From Streptomyces puniciscabiei (GTDB lineage Bacteria; Actinomycetota; Actinomycetes; Streptomycetales; Streptomycetaceae), in the NCBI RefSeq assembly GCF_006715785.1, contig NZ_VFNX01000001.1, positions 5,436,001 through 5,500,000 of the forward strand: a stretch of 64,000 nt of DNA, written 5' to 3'. This document shows positions 26,247-31,221 of this stretch, piece after piece. A program made the position numbers and the translations under genes. Numbering within the stretch: position 1 is the stretch's first letter; each line of letters opens with the position of its first letter. The notes under the pieces were generated by a model. That model was not told the DNA's origin, did no database searches, and saw only the letters and a list, made by a program, of their open reading frames with translations.

Positions 26247-26268
26247 GTTCAACTCGCGTTCAGGGTGT
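26247..26268 (+). promoter_or_regulatory. PHO box (PhoP-binding direct repeats)
   Basis: Two 11-base direct repeat units, GTTCAACTCGC and GTTCAGGGTGT, lie end to end. This is the spacing of Streptomyces PHO boxes, whose units begin with G(G/T)TCA. It lies 72 bases upstream of a PhoX-type phosphatase, as expected for a gene induced by phosphate starvation. Confidence 0.7.
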
Positions 26269-26339
26269 GGCGGGAGCGTGTGCGCCGAACCGAGGTCCGC
26301 CACCCTCCACGGCACTCCCACCGTCTCAGGAGACACACC

Positions 26340-27785
26340 ATGTCGCTCACTCGCAGGGACTTCGCCGGAAAATCCGCGATCACCGGCGCCGGGGTCGCCC
26401 TGACGGGCAGCGTCGGCGCGCTCGCCACCGCGCCGAACGCTCTGGCCGCGACCGACATCGACAGCGGCGAGGCGGAGCCGGCGCACGGTGGCCACCACGG
26501 CGTGGGCTACGGCCCGTTGGTCCCCGATCCGAACGGCATCCTGGCCCTGCCCGCGGGCTTCAGCTACCGGATCGTCACCCACAGCGGCAGGACCAGGCTG
26601 GAGTCCGGCGAGTTCACCCCGTCCAACCACGACGGCACCGCCGCCTTCGAGGGCCCCCGCGGCGCCACGCTCCTGGTCAACAACCACGAGCTGAAGGGCC
26701 CCCGCGCCAACTGGACGTATCCCGTGCCGCTCACCGAGGGCCTGGTCTACGACCCCGCCGCCTCCGGTGGCTGCACGGTGGTCGAGGTGCGCCGCGACCA
26801 GGTCGCCGAGTGGGTCGGCATCGCCGGCACCTCCACCAACTGCGCGGGCGGCAGCACGCCCTGGGGTACCTGGCTGACCTGCGAGGAGACCGAGGACAAG
26901 GCCGGCCAGAACGGCATGACCAAGGACCACGGCTATGTCTTCGAGGTCGACCCCGAGGACCGTCGGGCCAACCGCGACCCCCGGCCCGTCAAGGCCCTCG
27001 GCCGTTACGCCCACGAGGCCGTCGTCGTCGATCCCGGGCGCGGCCACCTCTACCTGACCGAGGACGCGGCCGGCCCCAACGGCCTGCTCTACCGCTGGAC
27101 CCCGCCGGAGGGCTTCCGCCACGGCCGCGGCCGACTGCGCACCCTCGCCGAGGACGCCGGGGTGCTCCAGGCCTTCAAGTGCTTCGACTCCGGTGGAAGG
27201 TTCGTGGACGACCTGTCCCGCGCCACGAGGATCGGCACGGTCTACGGCGTCGACTGGATCGACGTCCCCGACCGCGACGCCCGGACGGTCCCGGTCCGCA
27301 AGCAGTTCACCGACGGCCAGGTCACCCGCGCCCGCAAGCTGGAGGGCATGTGGTGGGGCGACGGCGGGGCCTACATCGTCTCCTCCTACGCCCGCGAGGA
27401 GAGCCCGGGCCGGCACGACGGCCAGGTCTGGTTCTACGACCCGCGGCGGCGCACGCTGACGCTGAAGGTCGTGCTCGGCGTGAACCCGGACCCGGGCACG
27501 GACGGCGCCTTCGACGGCCCGGACAACATCACCGTCTCCCCGTACGGCGGCCTGGTCATCGCCGAGGACGGCGAGGGCGTCCAGCACCTGTTCGGCGCCA
27601 CCGAGAGCGGCCGCACCTACCCCATCGCCCGCAACGAACTGAACATCGGTACCGAAGCGGAGCCGGGGTACAGCGAGTTCACCGGCGTCACCTTCTCCCC
27701 CGACGGCCGGACCCTGTTCGCCAACATCCAGACGCCCGGCATCATGCTGGCGATCACGGGGCCGTGGAAGCGGCAGCGGCGATAG
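26340..27785 (+). CDS. PhoX-family (DUF839) secreted phosphatase
   Basis: The 481-residue protein has a twin-arginine signal (SLTRRDFAGKSAITGAGVAL, then an NALAAT cleavage region) and a DUF839/PhoX beta-propeller. EFTPSNHDGTAAFEGPRGAT near residue 80, WGTWLTCEETED with the conserved catalytic-loop Glu and Cys, GRYAHEAVVVDP, and DGPDNITVSPYGGLVIAEDG near the C-terminus match PhoX alkaline phosphatases. Those are Tat-exported, Ca/Fe-dependent enzymes. A PHO box lies in the promoter. The ATG at 26340 starts directly before the Tat motif. Confidence 0.88.
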   Translation: MSLTRRDFAGKSAITGAGVALTGSVGALATAPNALAATDIDSGEAEPAHGGHHGVGYGPLVPDPNGILALPAGFSYRIVTHSGRTRLESGEFTPSNHDGTAAFEGPRGATLLVNNHELKGPRANWTYPVPLTEGLVYDPAASGGCTVVEVRRDQVAEWVGIAGTSTNCAGGSTPWGTWLTCEETEDKAGQNGMTKDHGYVFEVDPEDRRANRDPRPVKALGRYAHEAVVVDPGRGHLYLTEDAAGPNGLLYRWTPPEGFRHGRGRLRTLAEDAGVLQAFKCFDSGGRFVDDLSRATRIGTVYGVDWIDVPDRDARTVPVRKQFTDGQVTRARKLEGMWWGDGGAYIVSSYAREESPGRHDGQVWFYDPRRRTLTLKVVLGVNPDPGTDGAFDGPDNITVSPYGGLVIAEDGEGVQHLFGATESGRTYPIARNELNIGTEAEPGYSEFTGVTFSPDGRTLFANIQTPGIMLAITGPWKRQRR

Positions 27786-27848
27786 AAGAAGCTGCGTGCC
27801 CTGCCGGCCCCGGAATTAATTCGCTCGCCCGTCCCGCGGCTCCCCTCC

Positions 27849-27854
27849 TAGAGT
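27849..27854 (+). promoter_or_regulatory. Candidate -10 (TAGAGT) for the Y RNA cluster
   Basis: TAGAGT, a good Streptomyces -10 hexamer, ends 7 bases before the outer stem of the first Y RNA. No clear -35 element is seen at the usual distance, so an alternative sigma factor or an extended -10 is possible. Confidence 0.45.
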
Positions 27855-27861
27855 GATCCTC

Positions 27862-28001
27862 GTCCAGGTGCGACAGGCAGGACCTACTTCCGCTGATAAC
27901 GGGGAGGCCGCGGGTTCGAGTCCCGCCACCGGTACCACAGGCCGGTGTAGCTCAGGGGTGAGAGCACCACACGTCGGTTCCGCCGACCTCGATCTCTGGA
28001 C
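27862..28001 (+). ncRNA. Y RNA 1 with permuted tRNA-like module
   Basis: This is a bacterial Y RNA, the partner of the Ro60 homolog at 28303. The outer stem is GTCCAG (27862-27867) with CTGGAC (27996-28001). The Ro-binding inner stem is GGCAGGACC (27876-27884) with GGTTCCGCC (27976-27984), with one A-C mismatch. The enclosed module is tRNA-like but in permuted order: T arm 27910-27926 (loop TTCGAGT), a closed acceptor-like stem CACCGG/CCGGTG (27927-27932 with 27942-27947), then D arm GCTC/GAGC (27950-27965). The strand GGTGCGACAGGCAGGACC resembles the conserved 5' strand of animal Y RNAs. Confidence 0.82.
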
Positions 28002-28018
28002 ACGTAAGACCTCACGCA

Positions 28019-28094
28019 CCTCCCGGTGCGAAGGCAGCGGCTACTTCCCTTTCATGGAATGAAAAACAGCCGCAGCCGATCTGATCTCGGGAGG
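28019..28094 (+). ncRNA. Y RNA 2, compact form without tRNA module
   Basis: The same Ro-binding architecture is present in 76 bases. The outer stem is CCTCCCG (28019-28025) with CGGGAGG (28088-28094). The inner stem GGCAGCGGCT (28033-28042) pairs with AGCCGCAGCC (28068-28077) except for one A-A mismatch at the position where copies 1 and 3 have A-C. In place of the tRNA-like module is a small hairpin TTTCAT-GGA-ATGAAA (28050-28064). The GGTGCGAAGGCAGCGGCTAC strand is the closest of the three to the vertebrate Y RNA motif. TAAGAC at 28005-28010 could be its own -10 element. Confidence 0.72.
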
Positions 28095-28107
28095 CGCAGC
28101 TCATGGT

Positions 28108-28250
28108 GGGTGTCCGGTGCGCAGGCAGCGGTTACTTCATCGGACCGGACGGGTACGGGTTCGACTCCCGTCATCGACCCCAGGTCGATGTAGCTCAAGC
28201 GGAAGAGCATCTGGCTAAAGTCCGTCGCCGACCCCTGTCCTCGGACACCC
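28108..28250 (+). ncRNA. Y RNA 3 with permuted tRNA-like module
   Basis: The outer stem GGGTGTCCG (28108-28116) pairs perfectly with CGGACACCC (28242-28250). The Ro-binding inner stem GGCAGCGG (28124-28131) pairs with CCGTCGCC (28222-28229) with the same A-C mismatch as copy 1. The module has a T arm ACGGG/CCCGT (28155-28171, loop TTCGACT), an 8-bp acceptor-like stem CATCGACC/GGTCGATG closed by a CCA loop (28172-28190), and a D arm GCTC/GAGC (28193-28208) in TAGCTCAAGCGGAAGAGCA. It ends 52 bases before the Ro gene start. Confidence 0.82.
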
Positions 28251-28302
28251 TCCATTTGCTGCGCCTCCCTCCGAAACCGCAATGAATTCGGGGGAATTCA
28301 CC

Positions 28303-29886
28303 ATGGCGCGATTCAACACGCGTGCCGCCAAGGCACAGCCGGTCTCGCCGGTCACCACCACCGGCCGCACCCTGCTCACCCACGAGGGCGGCCGGGGCCA
28401 CGAGCGGGACGCGCGCTCCGAGCTCTTCCTGCTCGCCGTCTCCAACCTCGTCACGCAGAACACCTTCTACGAGTCCGGCACCGACCGCGACGACCGGTTC
28501 GCCCGGCTCGTGCGCGACCTCGCCGTCAGCGACCCGGAGTGGACGGCCGGCCTGCTCGGCTGGCTGCGCGGTGAGGGACACATGCGGACGGCGTCGCTCG
28601 TGGGCGCCGCGGAGTACGTGCAGGCGCGTCTCACGGCCGGCGCGACCGGCGGCCCGTCGAACCGGCAGGTCGTGGACCGTGTACTCCAGCGCCCGGACGA
28701 GCCGGGCGAGTTGCTGGCGTACTGGACGTCGACGTACGGCCGTGCCCTGCCCAAGCCCGTCAAGCGCGGGGTCGCCGACGCCATACGACGGCTGTACCAC
28801 GTCAAGTCGCTGCTGAAGTACGACACCGCGTCCAAGGGCTACCGCTTCGGCGACATCCTGAACCTGGTGCACGCGGCACCGGACCCGGACAAGCCGTGGC
28901 AGGGCGAGCTGTTCCGGTACGCGCTCGACCGCCGGCACCGCCCGGACACCGCCGTGCCGCCCGCGTCCCTGCCCGTGCTCACCGCGCACCGCGAGCTGAT
29001 GGCACTGCCGGTGCCGGAGCGGCGGGCGGTCGTCGCCTCGCCCGGCGGCGCCGAGCGGCTCGCGGCGGCCGGCCTCACCTGGGAGGCGCTGGCCGGCTGG
29101 CTCCAGGGCCCCATGGACAAGGCGGCCTGGGAGGCCGTGATCCCGTCCATGGGCGCCATGGCGCTGGTGCGCAACCTGCGCAACTTCGACGAGGCCGGGG
29201 TGTCCGACGAGGTCGCGGCCCGGGTGGCGGCGAAGATCAGCGACCCGGAGCAGGTCGCGCGCTCGCGGCAGTTCCCCTTCCGCTACCTCGCCGCCTACCG
29301 GCACGCGCCGTCGCTGCGCTGGTCGTACCCGCTGGAGCAGGCGCTCGGTCACTCGCTGGCCAACGTGCCCGCGCTGCCGGGCCGGACGCTGGTCCTGGTC
29401 GACCGGTCGGGCTCGATGTTCTGGGCGCAGTCCCGGGACCGCTCGGAGCTCACCCGGGCCGACGCGGCGGCGATCTTCGGCACCGCACTCGCGCTGCGGG
29501 CGGCCGACGCCGACCTCGTGGAGTTCGGTACGACCAGCAACAAGATCACGTTCCGCAAGGGCGAGTCGGTGCTGAGGATCCTGGAGCGCTTCGGCAACCT
29601 GGGCGGCACCGACACCACCGACGCGGTGCGCCGGCACTACAGGAAGCACGACCGGGTGCTGATCGTCACCGACGAGCAGTACGCCCCGAACCGGCACGGC
29701 GACCCGACCGCCCAGATCCCGGCCCATGTGCCGGTCTACACCTGGAACCTGGAGGGCTACCGGGCGGGCCACGGCCCGTCGGGAAGCGGGAACCGGCATG
29801 TATTCGCCGGCCTTTCGGATGCCGCCTTTCGCATGGTTCCCCTGCTGGAGAGTGGTCGCGACAGCCGTTGGCCGTGGCTTGCCTGA
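28303..29886 (+). CDS. rsr: TROVE-domain Ro60 homolog (Rsr)
   Basis: This 527-residue protein is a Ro60 ortholog. Such proteins form a ring that binds Y RNAs and misfolded RNA and help RNA quality control and stress survival, often with PNPase. The N-terminal TROVE domain (residues about 10-300) includes [19 protein letters not shown] and [20 protein letters not shown], with [20 protein letters not shown] in its helical repeats. A vWA domain follows with the MIDAS motif DRSGSM at residue 367 and [14 protein letters not shown] 28303 has GGGGGA eight bases upstream and is preferred to ATG 28282. Three Y RNA-like elements lie directly upstream. Confidence 0.93.
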
Positions 29887-30401: not shown

Positions 30402-30522
30402 GGCAACGGCGGTCCGCAGCAGGTGTCCGCGGTGGCTTCCGCGCAGGCCGTGAGAGGCCTGCTCGGTCATGCGCCGGAGTTCCGGGGCGGCGGCCGTCGG
30501 CGGGCGGAGCCATGATGGCGGT

Positions 30523-31221
30523 GTGCCCCGCCCCTCGACGCCCTCGGCCCCGGCGCCCCGCCCCCCGGCGTCCCCCGCCGCGTCCCGCCCGGCCGAGGAA
30601 CCCCGTCCGGCGGCCGCCTCCGGCCGCGCCGAGTCGGCCCCCACCCCCCGGACCGCGGTGGCCTGGCTGCCCCCGGCCGAGCTGTGGCCCGCCATCCAAG
30701 GCATCCGTGCAGAGCACGACCCGCAGATCCGCCGCTGGCCGCCCCATGTGAACCTGATCTTCGGCTTCGTACCGGAGGAGGACTTCCCGGCGGCGCTCCC
30801 GCCGCTGGCCGCCGCGGCCGCCGAGTGCGCGCCCTTCGACATCCGCCTCCACGGCGTCCGTTTCTTCCGCCACCGGTCCTACTCCACCGTGTGGCTCGAC
30901 CCCGCCGCGGCCGGCGCCGCGCCCTGGACGCGGCTCCGGAGCGTGCTGGCGGAGCCCTTCCCGTCCTGCACGGACCGCTTCCCCACCTTCACCCCGCACC
31001 TCTCGCTCGGCCGCACCCGTGCCCCGCGCGTCCTCGCGGCCGAATGCGCCGCCCGGCTCGGCGTGCTGCACGCACGCGTCGCCGAGATCGTGGTGCTCTC
31101 CCGCCGCGGCGACGGCCCCATGCGGACGCGCGCCACGATCGGCCTGGGCACCGGCGCCGTACGCCACCACCTCGGGCCGGATCCGGCTACCGGCGGGTAC
31201 GAGCCACCGGAACGGCACTGA
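30523..31221 (+). CDS. 2'-5' RNA ligase / 2H phosphoesterase-family protein
   Basis: The 232-residue protein has an Ala/Pro-rich N-terminal tail of about 45 residues, then a 2H phosphoesterase domain. Its two catalytic motifs are [10 protein letters not shown] near residue 76 (HxN in place of HxT/S) and TPHLSLGR near residue 162 (HxS). It resembles LigT/AKAP7-like enzymes that open or hydrolyse 2',3'-cyclic phosphates in RNA. The GTG at 30523 is an inferred start. Its closeness to the Ro/Y RNA locus is notable for an RNA-end enzyme, but the two are separated by a pseudogene. Confidence 0.8.

Follow-up and report, generated by a model that had tools for sequence, protein, structure and literature searches.

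The window analysed here, a 64,000-nucleotide stretch of the Streptomyces puniciscabiei genome, contains an intact Ro60 (TROVE) gene preceded by three tandem modules that share one Ro-type stem. The encoded protein matches Pfam TROVE at 50.4 bits (residues 280-339 of the ORF from 28282) and the solved TROVE-domain proteins 9kop/9l5y at an E-value of about 2e-28, and its gene is the single TROVE match in the source genome at E <= 0.001. All three modules adjoin this gene (ro), which starts at 28303. The locus comprises the following features:

26265-27785: PhoX-type gene, upstream of the array
27816..27854, + strand: promoter-like block consisting of TTAATTCG (27816-27823), 25 nt and TAGAGT (27849-27854), by consensus match
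27862..28001, + strand: copy 1, module of Y RNA type whose tRNA-like head is permuted, by fold, conservation and a partial YrlA match
28019..28094, + strand: copy 2, compact Y RNA-type module without a tRNA-like head, in which segment 1 (28019-28025) pairs with segment 2 (28088-28094), by model score and covariation
28045-28059, + strand: drawable copy 2 hairpin TTCC..GGAA, 15 bases, from the sequence; the MFE fold differs
28108..28250, + strand: copy 3, module of Y RNA type whose permuted tRNA-like head is class I and open at the anticodon loop, by fold, YrlA match and cloverleaf dimensions
28303..29886, + strand: Ro60/Rsr-type protein of 527 aa, by Pfam TROVE and solved-structure matches
30469-31221: 2'-5' RNA ligase/LigT-family gene, downstream of ro

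The array is conserved in Streptomyces. We compared 81 loci consisting of the window and the best 80 of 241 candidate relatives, all titled Streptomyces. In this set (best 80 of 241 plus the window), copy 1 is present in 60/81 loci and copy 3 in 78/81, copy 2 is full in 73/81 and collapsed to its outer stem in 8/81, and all three modules are full in 49/81. A stricter pattern gives 71 for copy 2 and 47 for all three because it misses the full copies of L011 and L054; a few extra module anchor matches were judged spurious and excluded. Across the 80 Streptomyces relatives (best 80 of 241) the modules keep this order, apart from single modules that are lost, and the triplet, for which the sequence-only reading had proposed a comparison across the genus, is no local oddity. 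The PhoX-type gene (26265-27785) is found at 73/80 of the relatives' loci (best 80 of 241). The LigT-like 2'-5' RNA ligase was dropped as a candidate conserved Ro partner, being present at just 5/80 loci (best 80 of 241), 69 of which include 4 kb or more past the start of ro.

The three modules are built around a common stem. The sequence-only reading had placed them upstream of the TROVE gene, and all are present there, with GGTGCG common to the three (27867-27872, 28025-28030 and 28116-28121). Read from the sequence, each inner stem begins with GGC:GCC, followed by a mismatch at the same A (A.C in copies 1 and 3, A.A in copy 2) and then by 4-6 pairs; the MFE fold of copy 3 pairs part of its inner stem otherwise. 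The mismatch had been described as constant, which holds for the three window copies; between species it is usual and not invariant (a paired C-G in L010). TACTTC, also described as shared, follows the inner 5' strand or overlaps it by one base in all three. Shuffled sequences fold as well as copy 2 in 2/200 cases (z -2.56), as copy 3 in 1/200 (z -2.90) and as copy 1 in 24/200 (z -1.33). Rfam yields 0 matches in the window at gathering threshold. Under relaxed limits, the YrlA family (RF02553) matches copy 3 at 32.1 bits (28125-28234) and, partially, the head of copy 1 at 31.1 bits, both below its gathering score of 69 bits, a cut-off that was reached in 0/10 genomes searched. As a genome-wide test for missed tRNA-like Y RNAs this family was rejected, since at E <= 10 it has matches in 13/14 control genomes, which probably come from adjacent tRNA genes. 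The three modules are very probably Y RNA-type elements and putative Ro-binding RNAs, and the originally proposed combination of two tRNA-mimic modules and one compact module beside Ro60 is supported.

Copy 1 resembles a complete permuted tRNA and includes a hairpin similar to an anticodon arm, a feature absent from the first reading. As had been recognized, copies 1 and 3 contain a T arm, a closed acceptor (here 7 bp) and a D arm, arranged in permuted order. In copy 1, the head is composed of these parts:

27888..27904, + strand: anticodon-arm-like hairpin TTCCG-CTGATAA-CGGGG, by pairing and loop pattern
27910..27926, + strand: T arm, from the sequence
27927..27947, + strand: closed acceptor stem CACCGGT / GCCGGTG with a short linker, by pairing
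27950..27965, + strand: D arm, from the sequence

The anticodon-like hairpin has 5/5 pairs and a 7-nt loop in 57/60 copies, and its loop reads CUNNU(A/C)A in 58/60, with 6-nt loops in 2; the arm shows little covariation, with change at essentially one pair. The acceptor has 7/7 pairs in 57/60 copies and 6 in the other 3. A similar anticodon-like hairpin can be seen by eye in modules of L082, L083, L155, L158 and L180. When copy 1 is cut at the closed end of its acceptor and its halves are put back into tRNA order, ARAGORN calls a tRNA in 60/60 sequences, compared with 0/1200 when both halves are shuffled, 200/1200 when the D-arm half is shuffled and 669/1200 when the acceptor 5' strand is shuffled. 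ARAGORN was discarded as proof of the anticodon arm: because shuffling that arm leaves 1154/1200 calls, the test is uninformative about it. Without rearrangement, the program reports tRNA-Ile(gat) at 27864-27937 of the window and a tRNA in 13/60 copy 1 sequences, as expected if the region were a chance or relic tRNA gene cluster. The window call spans just part of the permuted module, however, and the results for the un-permuted halves (60/60 against 0/1200) as well as the linkage to Ro argue the other way. With the permuted order conserved, the tRNA cluster reading is refuted and retains a negligible probability. Y modules of this kind fall under the Rfam YrlA cut-off and can be misannotated as tRNAs.

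Copy 3 occurs with two kinds of head. It is class-I-like in 45/78 loci and class-II-like in 33/78, the label class II being our interpretation of the D arm and the variable part. Class-I-like copies (n = 45) have 7/7 acceptor pairs in 43, 5/5 anticodon stem pairs in 38 and a 5-nt variable loop in 42; class-II-like copies (n = 33) have 7/7 acceptor pairs in 33, 5/5 anticodon stem pairs in 32 and a variable part of 6 nt in 10 and of 10-20 nt in 23. Slid controls for copy 3 reach at best 4.33 against 4.84 for class I and 4.91 against 4.97 for class II; these GC-rich controls pair fairly well, and lengths and pair variety therefore outweigh pair counts. On the Ro tree, the copy 3 class changes 19 times, whereas 200 shuffles average 25.1 changes and go down to 18 (one quick tree), and two Ro proteins that are 97% identical carry different classes. 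Head class is almost unlinked to the Ro tree. Given these class changes and the differing heads of near-identical Ro proteins, the tRNA-like heads seem to turn over fast.

Copy 2 is a Y RNA-like element, not a YrlA. The 76-nt span first assigned to it stands, with a 25-nt loop that contains neither T nor D arm; the 15-base hairpin proposed for this loop can be drawn, yet the MFE fold pairs the loop differently and weakly. We built a covariance model (R1) from 58 compact copies, chosen from 120 loci matching a sequence pattern. R1 scores window copy 2 at 77.5 bits (E 3.6e-13, the window row itself being in the model) and copy 3 at 19.6 bits, and copy 1 is absent from its matches. In the alignment of the 58 compact copies, the outer helix is almost invariant and the inner helix shows compensatory change: pair 21-68 is CG in 26, GC in 25, AU in 2, UA in 2, GU in 1 and broken in 2, and pair 25-64 is CG in 27, UA in 22, UG in 2 and broken in 7. 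Compensatory base changes in related genomes, which the sequence-only reading had looked to as a check, were thus found in the inner stem of the compact form. That copy 2 might be a decaying YrlA remnant is suggested by a series of reduced heads leading from a T arm without D arm over a T arm alone, a plain hairpin and a bare loop to the collapsed form. This interpretation is very improbable in view of the covarying inner stem, the occurrence of R1 matches in 9/17 genera of Streptomycetaceae and the near-invariance of the outer strands.

The distribution of R1 matches closely follows that of Ro60. Of 394 Streptomycetaceae genomes, 223 have TROVE and 214 have R1, with both in 207, neither in 164, TROVE only in 16 and R1 only in 7 (kinship uncorrected). 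Three of the seven R1-only genomes have a broken or partial Ro beside the RNA, and the protein search found no Ro in the other four. A compact-type Y module is retained beside the broken or partial Ro in L200, L201 and L202 (G361, G225 and G188). In other genera, the arrays of L091, L102 and L085 have four module anchors, and in L091 an additional promoter may, by eye, precede the second module. R1 also matches Ro loci in other families of the class, with compact forms in L128, L142, L145 and L148. Folds of 36 chosen R1 matches, not all from other families, include compact as well as tRNA-like or reduced heads, and L128 and L148 combine compact with tRNA-like or reduced heads within one array. 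Intermediate heads on the Ro stem were observed in L085, L097, L106, L108, L146 and L173, namely a T arm without D arm, a T arm alone or a plain hairpin.

At loci of a second Ro type, where GATGCG mostly replaces GGTGCG, the sole R1 match (E <= 1) is a compact module. Examples are L086, L087, L089, L092, L093, L094, L095 and L098, and further L100, L101, L104 (with GGTGCG), L110, L123, L182 and L197. Three single-TROVE genomes with this Ro type (G329, G263 and G151) have one R1 match genome-wide at E <= 0.1; G151 also has a short Ro-like fragment. Compact-only loci, these three genomes and the compact forms of other families would all suit a free-standing Y RNA that, with no tRNA-tethered partner, gates the Ro ring or competes on it, in line with the gating or competitor role suggested by the sequence-only reading; the alternative helix described below would then be secondary. 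R1 sees tRNA-like modules weakly, however, and extra modules in compact-only loci may therefore be missed. In addition, the compact copies collapsed in 8/81 Streptomyces loci (best 80 of 241 plus the window) keep the outer stem, an indication that the outer strands are of greater importance than the Y RNA itself. We consider a free-standing role possible but unlikely.

The array appears to be served by one promoter-like block. T(A/T)AATTNR, 24-25 nt and TANNNT lie no further than 75 nt 5' of the first module in 65/81 loci (best 80 of 241 plus the window), and most of the 16 misses resemble near-variants by eye. No such block precedes any of 137 later module anchors (about 4 of them spurious), and in loci without copy 1 the block lies directly 5' of copy 2. 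From this arrangement we infer that one transcript would run from the block through the modules into ro.

Within this putative leader, the 3' outer strand of copy 2 has two potential partners. The elements concerned are:

28015..28030, + strand: local hairpin CGCACC-TCCC-GGTGCG, which would hide the copy 2 5' Ro-site strand, by flank test
28089..28100, + strand: shared strand GGGAGGCGCAGC, of which GGGAGG pairs with segment 1, or which pairs as a whole with 28258-28269, by folds and covariation
28258..28273, + strand: segment 3, GCTGCGCCTCCCTCCG, which pairs with 28089-28100, or through its 3' part (28268-28273) with the SD region, by folds and covariation
28284..28299, + strand: hairpin GAATTCGGGGGAATTC holding the ro SD, by alignment conservation and SD hairpins in other loci of the family

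We refer to the copy 2 outer stem (segment 1 with segment 2) as 1:2, to segment 2 with segment 3 as 2:3 and to segment 3 with the SD region as 3:4. In the full-leader fold of the window, the copy 2 outer stem is not formed; 28089-28100 pairs instead with 28258-28269, which sits beyond copy 3 and immediately before the ribosome-binding site of ro, and the copy 2 5' strand makes a hairpin of its own. Among the 75/81 loci that could be scored in full-leader folds, segment 2 is paired downstream in 71 and in 1:2 in 2. With the leader cut before segment 3, 1:2 closes in 48/75 loci and is not formed in 27/75. Forcing 1:2 in the full leader costs a mean of 8.0 kcal/mol (0 to 18.1; 6.6 in the window).

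The 2:3 helix is supported by covariation. In a first test on 73 of the 81 Streptomyces loci, it scored -24.7 against -23.7 (sd 0.19) with 0/200 controls reaching the native value. Over the 81 loci, 95.0% of cells are paired against 93.6 (sd 0.2) in shuffled pairings (0/500), and 24 double-change cells compare with 11.7 (0/500), both uncorrected for kinship; further pair types number 15 against 12.8 (13/500). Pair 28098:28260 within the helix is A-C in 22/81 loci. A further 39 Streptomycetaceae loci that have a copy 3, including some from Streptomyces, give -32.9 kcal/mol for the native duplex, compared with -26.6 (sd 0.56) for swapped strands (0/300, kinship uncorrected; L194 was dropped for lack of a start match). 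Where ro lies no more than 130 nt from the compact module (7 loci), there is no 2:3 signal, with 166/300 swaps reaching the native value. In L062, which has lost copy 3, a 2:3 helix of 13 bp persists with an altered sequence (by eye; 6/6 in the fold test). The flank that would hide the Ro site of copy 2 yields -9.4 kcal/mol against -5.1 with a shuffled upstream flank in 108 loci, and -6.7 against -4.8 kcal/mol in 10 compact-only loci. The local hairpin is nearly invariant in Streptomyces (99.8% of cells paired), as is 1:2, and neither therefore has covariation of its own. For 3:4, no covariation was detected in Streptomyces (95.4% against 95.3 paired, reached in 74/500 shuffles), which rules out treating it as proven there; SD-region folds in the 39 further loci show a modest difference, -14.0 against -12.8 (sd 0.28) for swapped sequences (0/100, kinship uncorrected). 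The overlap of 3:4 with 2:3 is 2 nt in Streptomyces and about 3-4 nt in other genera (by eye), so short that the two might coexist. Overall, we think it likely that the mutually exclusive helices are real.

The main rival to a regulatory role holds that the helix 28089-28100 : 28258-28269 is chiefly an RNase III (AbsB) processing site that frees the Y RNAs from the ro mRNA, with no Ro sensing. A long double strand, about 25 pairs altogether around copy 3 in the MFE fold, and the covariation of 2:3 agree with such a site, and the title of PMC2936110 reports cleavage of an mRNA by S. coelicolor RNase III/AbsB. Processing alone leaves unexplained why the strand is shared with copy 2 and why copy 2 has a complementary 5' flank that can hide its Ro site, and it gives no reason for collapsed copies to keep segments 1 and 2. 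As the main function of the helix we judge it rather unlikely, and it could act together with a Ro switch.

Based on the arrangement of the sequence elements, we cautiously favor a co-transcribed ro (rsr) leader in which the compact Y RNA would double as a Ro-sensing switch. A single promoter would produce an RNA with three putative Ro-binding Y modules, and the permuted tRNA heads of copies 1 and 3 may, by analogy, tether partners such as PNPase. Segment 2 would first pair with segment 1 to form the Ro site of copy 2. Once segment 3 is transcribed, segment 2 could switch to it, dismantling the Ro site while the 5' strand folds on itself. Plentiful Ro would bind copy 2 and hold 1:2, leaving segment 3 free to pair with the SD region and lowering ro translation; with Ro scarce, 2:3 would form and ro would be translated. 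The final step, 3:4 pairing, is the weakest, and it is Ro binding of copy 2, the direction of control and PNPase tethering that we infer. Ro autoregulation through mutually exclusive helices is named here as a tentative proposal, somewhat less probable than not, that may be read from these helices. More speculative is a joint reading in which the compact Y RNA is a protein-sensing leader domain setting Ro60 levels and the other heads are fast-changing tRNA decoys, which we regard as unlikely. Equally doubtful are its further parts, namely that a variable-anticodon-like copy 1 and a class-I/II copy 3 are swapped almost independently of Ro lineage, and that head turnover resembles an arms race against anticodon nucleases or against tRNA-targeting factors of phages.

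The trp attenuator and ribosomal-protein leaders are autoregulatory mRNA leaders with mutually exclusive helices. The putative ro leader resembles attenuator-type leaders in its predicted segments 1:2, 2:3 and 3:4 and in a shared strand before the start codon; it differs in that a Y RNA would do the sensing, with Ro60 as effector, and in that 3:4 is weakly exclusive. According to a 2014 abstract by Chen, at least one Y RNA per species reportedly has a tRNA-like domain; Y RNAs without such a domain are therefore not new in principle. YrlA (RF02553), known from Salmonella and Mycobacterium smegmatis, has the Ro stem, permuted D arm, T arm, closed acceptor and Ro60 neighbor seen here, and the topology of copy 3, opened at the anticodon loop, is that of the RF02553 consensus. 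The array differs from YrlA in the scores of the window copies (32.1 and 31.1 bits, under the gathering score of 69), in the closed anticodon-like hairpin of copy 1, in the lack of any tRNA-like part in copy 2 and in the class-II-like copy 3 of 33/78 loci, 23 with a 10-20 nt variable part. Salmonella has two Y RNAs, YrlA and YrlB, in the order rsr-yrlB-yrlA according to the excerpt of PMC9879122, compared with three modules 5' of ro here. More than one Y RNA per Ro gene, as in our array, is likewise reported in the excerpts of PMC9879122 and PMC7790460 for YrlB and Y RNAs of the same operon; the shared-strand leader present here has no counterpart described for Salmonella Y RNAs in these excerpts. 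The array may also be likened to the Deinococcus radiodurans RYPER, in which a Y RNA sits on the Ro ring as a possible PNPase tether (PMC8394870 and PMC4726728, in part), with the difference that the compact copy lacks the tRNA-like module that would tether PNPase. Such tethering by a tRNA-like head is described for D. radiodurans and Salmonella in the review literature. Earlier work (PMC8394870, PMC9879122, PMC7790460 and PMC4726728, as excerpted) already covers Y RNAs, YrlA among them, as well as permuted tRNA mimicry and operons with several Y RNAs. The open-licence literature searched yielded no conserved mixed Y RNA array in a ro leader, no anticodon-bearing or class-II Y RNA heads, no Ro loci with a compact module alone and no Y RNA that has a strand in common with an alternative helix at the start of ro, each a weak negative. 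The locus makes testable, in non-pathogenic Streptomyces that are easy to grow, how Ro60 levels are set outside sigma-54/RtcR operons and why Y RNA heads differ. The array offers defined heads, natural losses of each module and compact-only Ro loci for comparison, and the alternative helices of the leader predict autoregulation of ro.

A second Y-like module, unlinked to the array, lies between metK and priA in the source genome (G000:C1:5995477-5995575, corresponding to L210:1501-1599; 48.3 bits, E 9.7e-6). A function as a regulated priA leader was rejected, as what we take to be a promoter-like motif between the Y module and priA speaks against it. G307 and G023 have such a module and no Ro match. 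By motif, like modules are present between metK and priA in L223, L229, L234 and L236; together with the source genome, this amounts to 5/30 metK loci fetched (61 genomes searched), in 23/30 of which the priA start was recognized. By eye, other arrays also contain a related head, GUGGAG..hairpin..GGUGAA.
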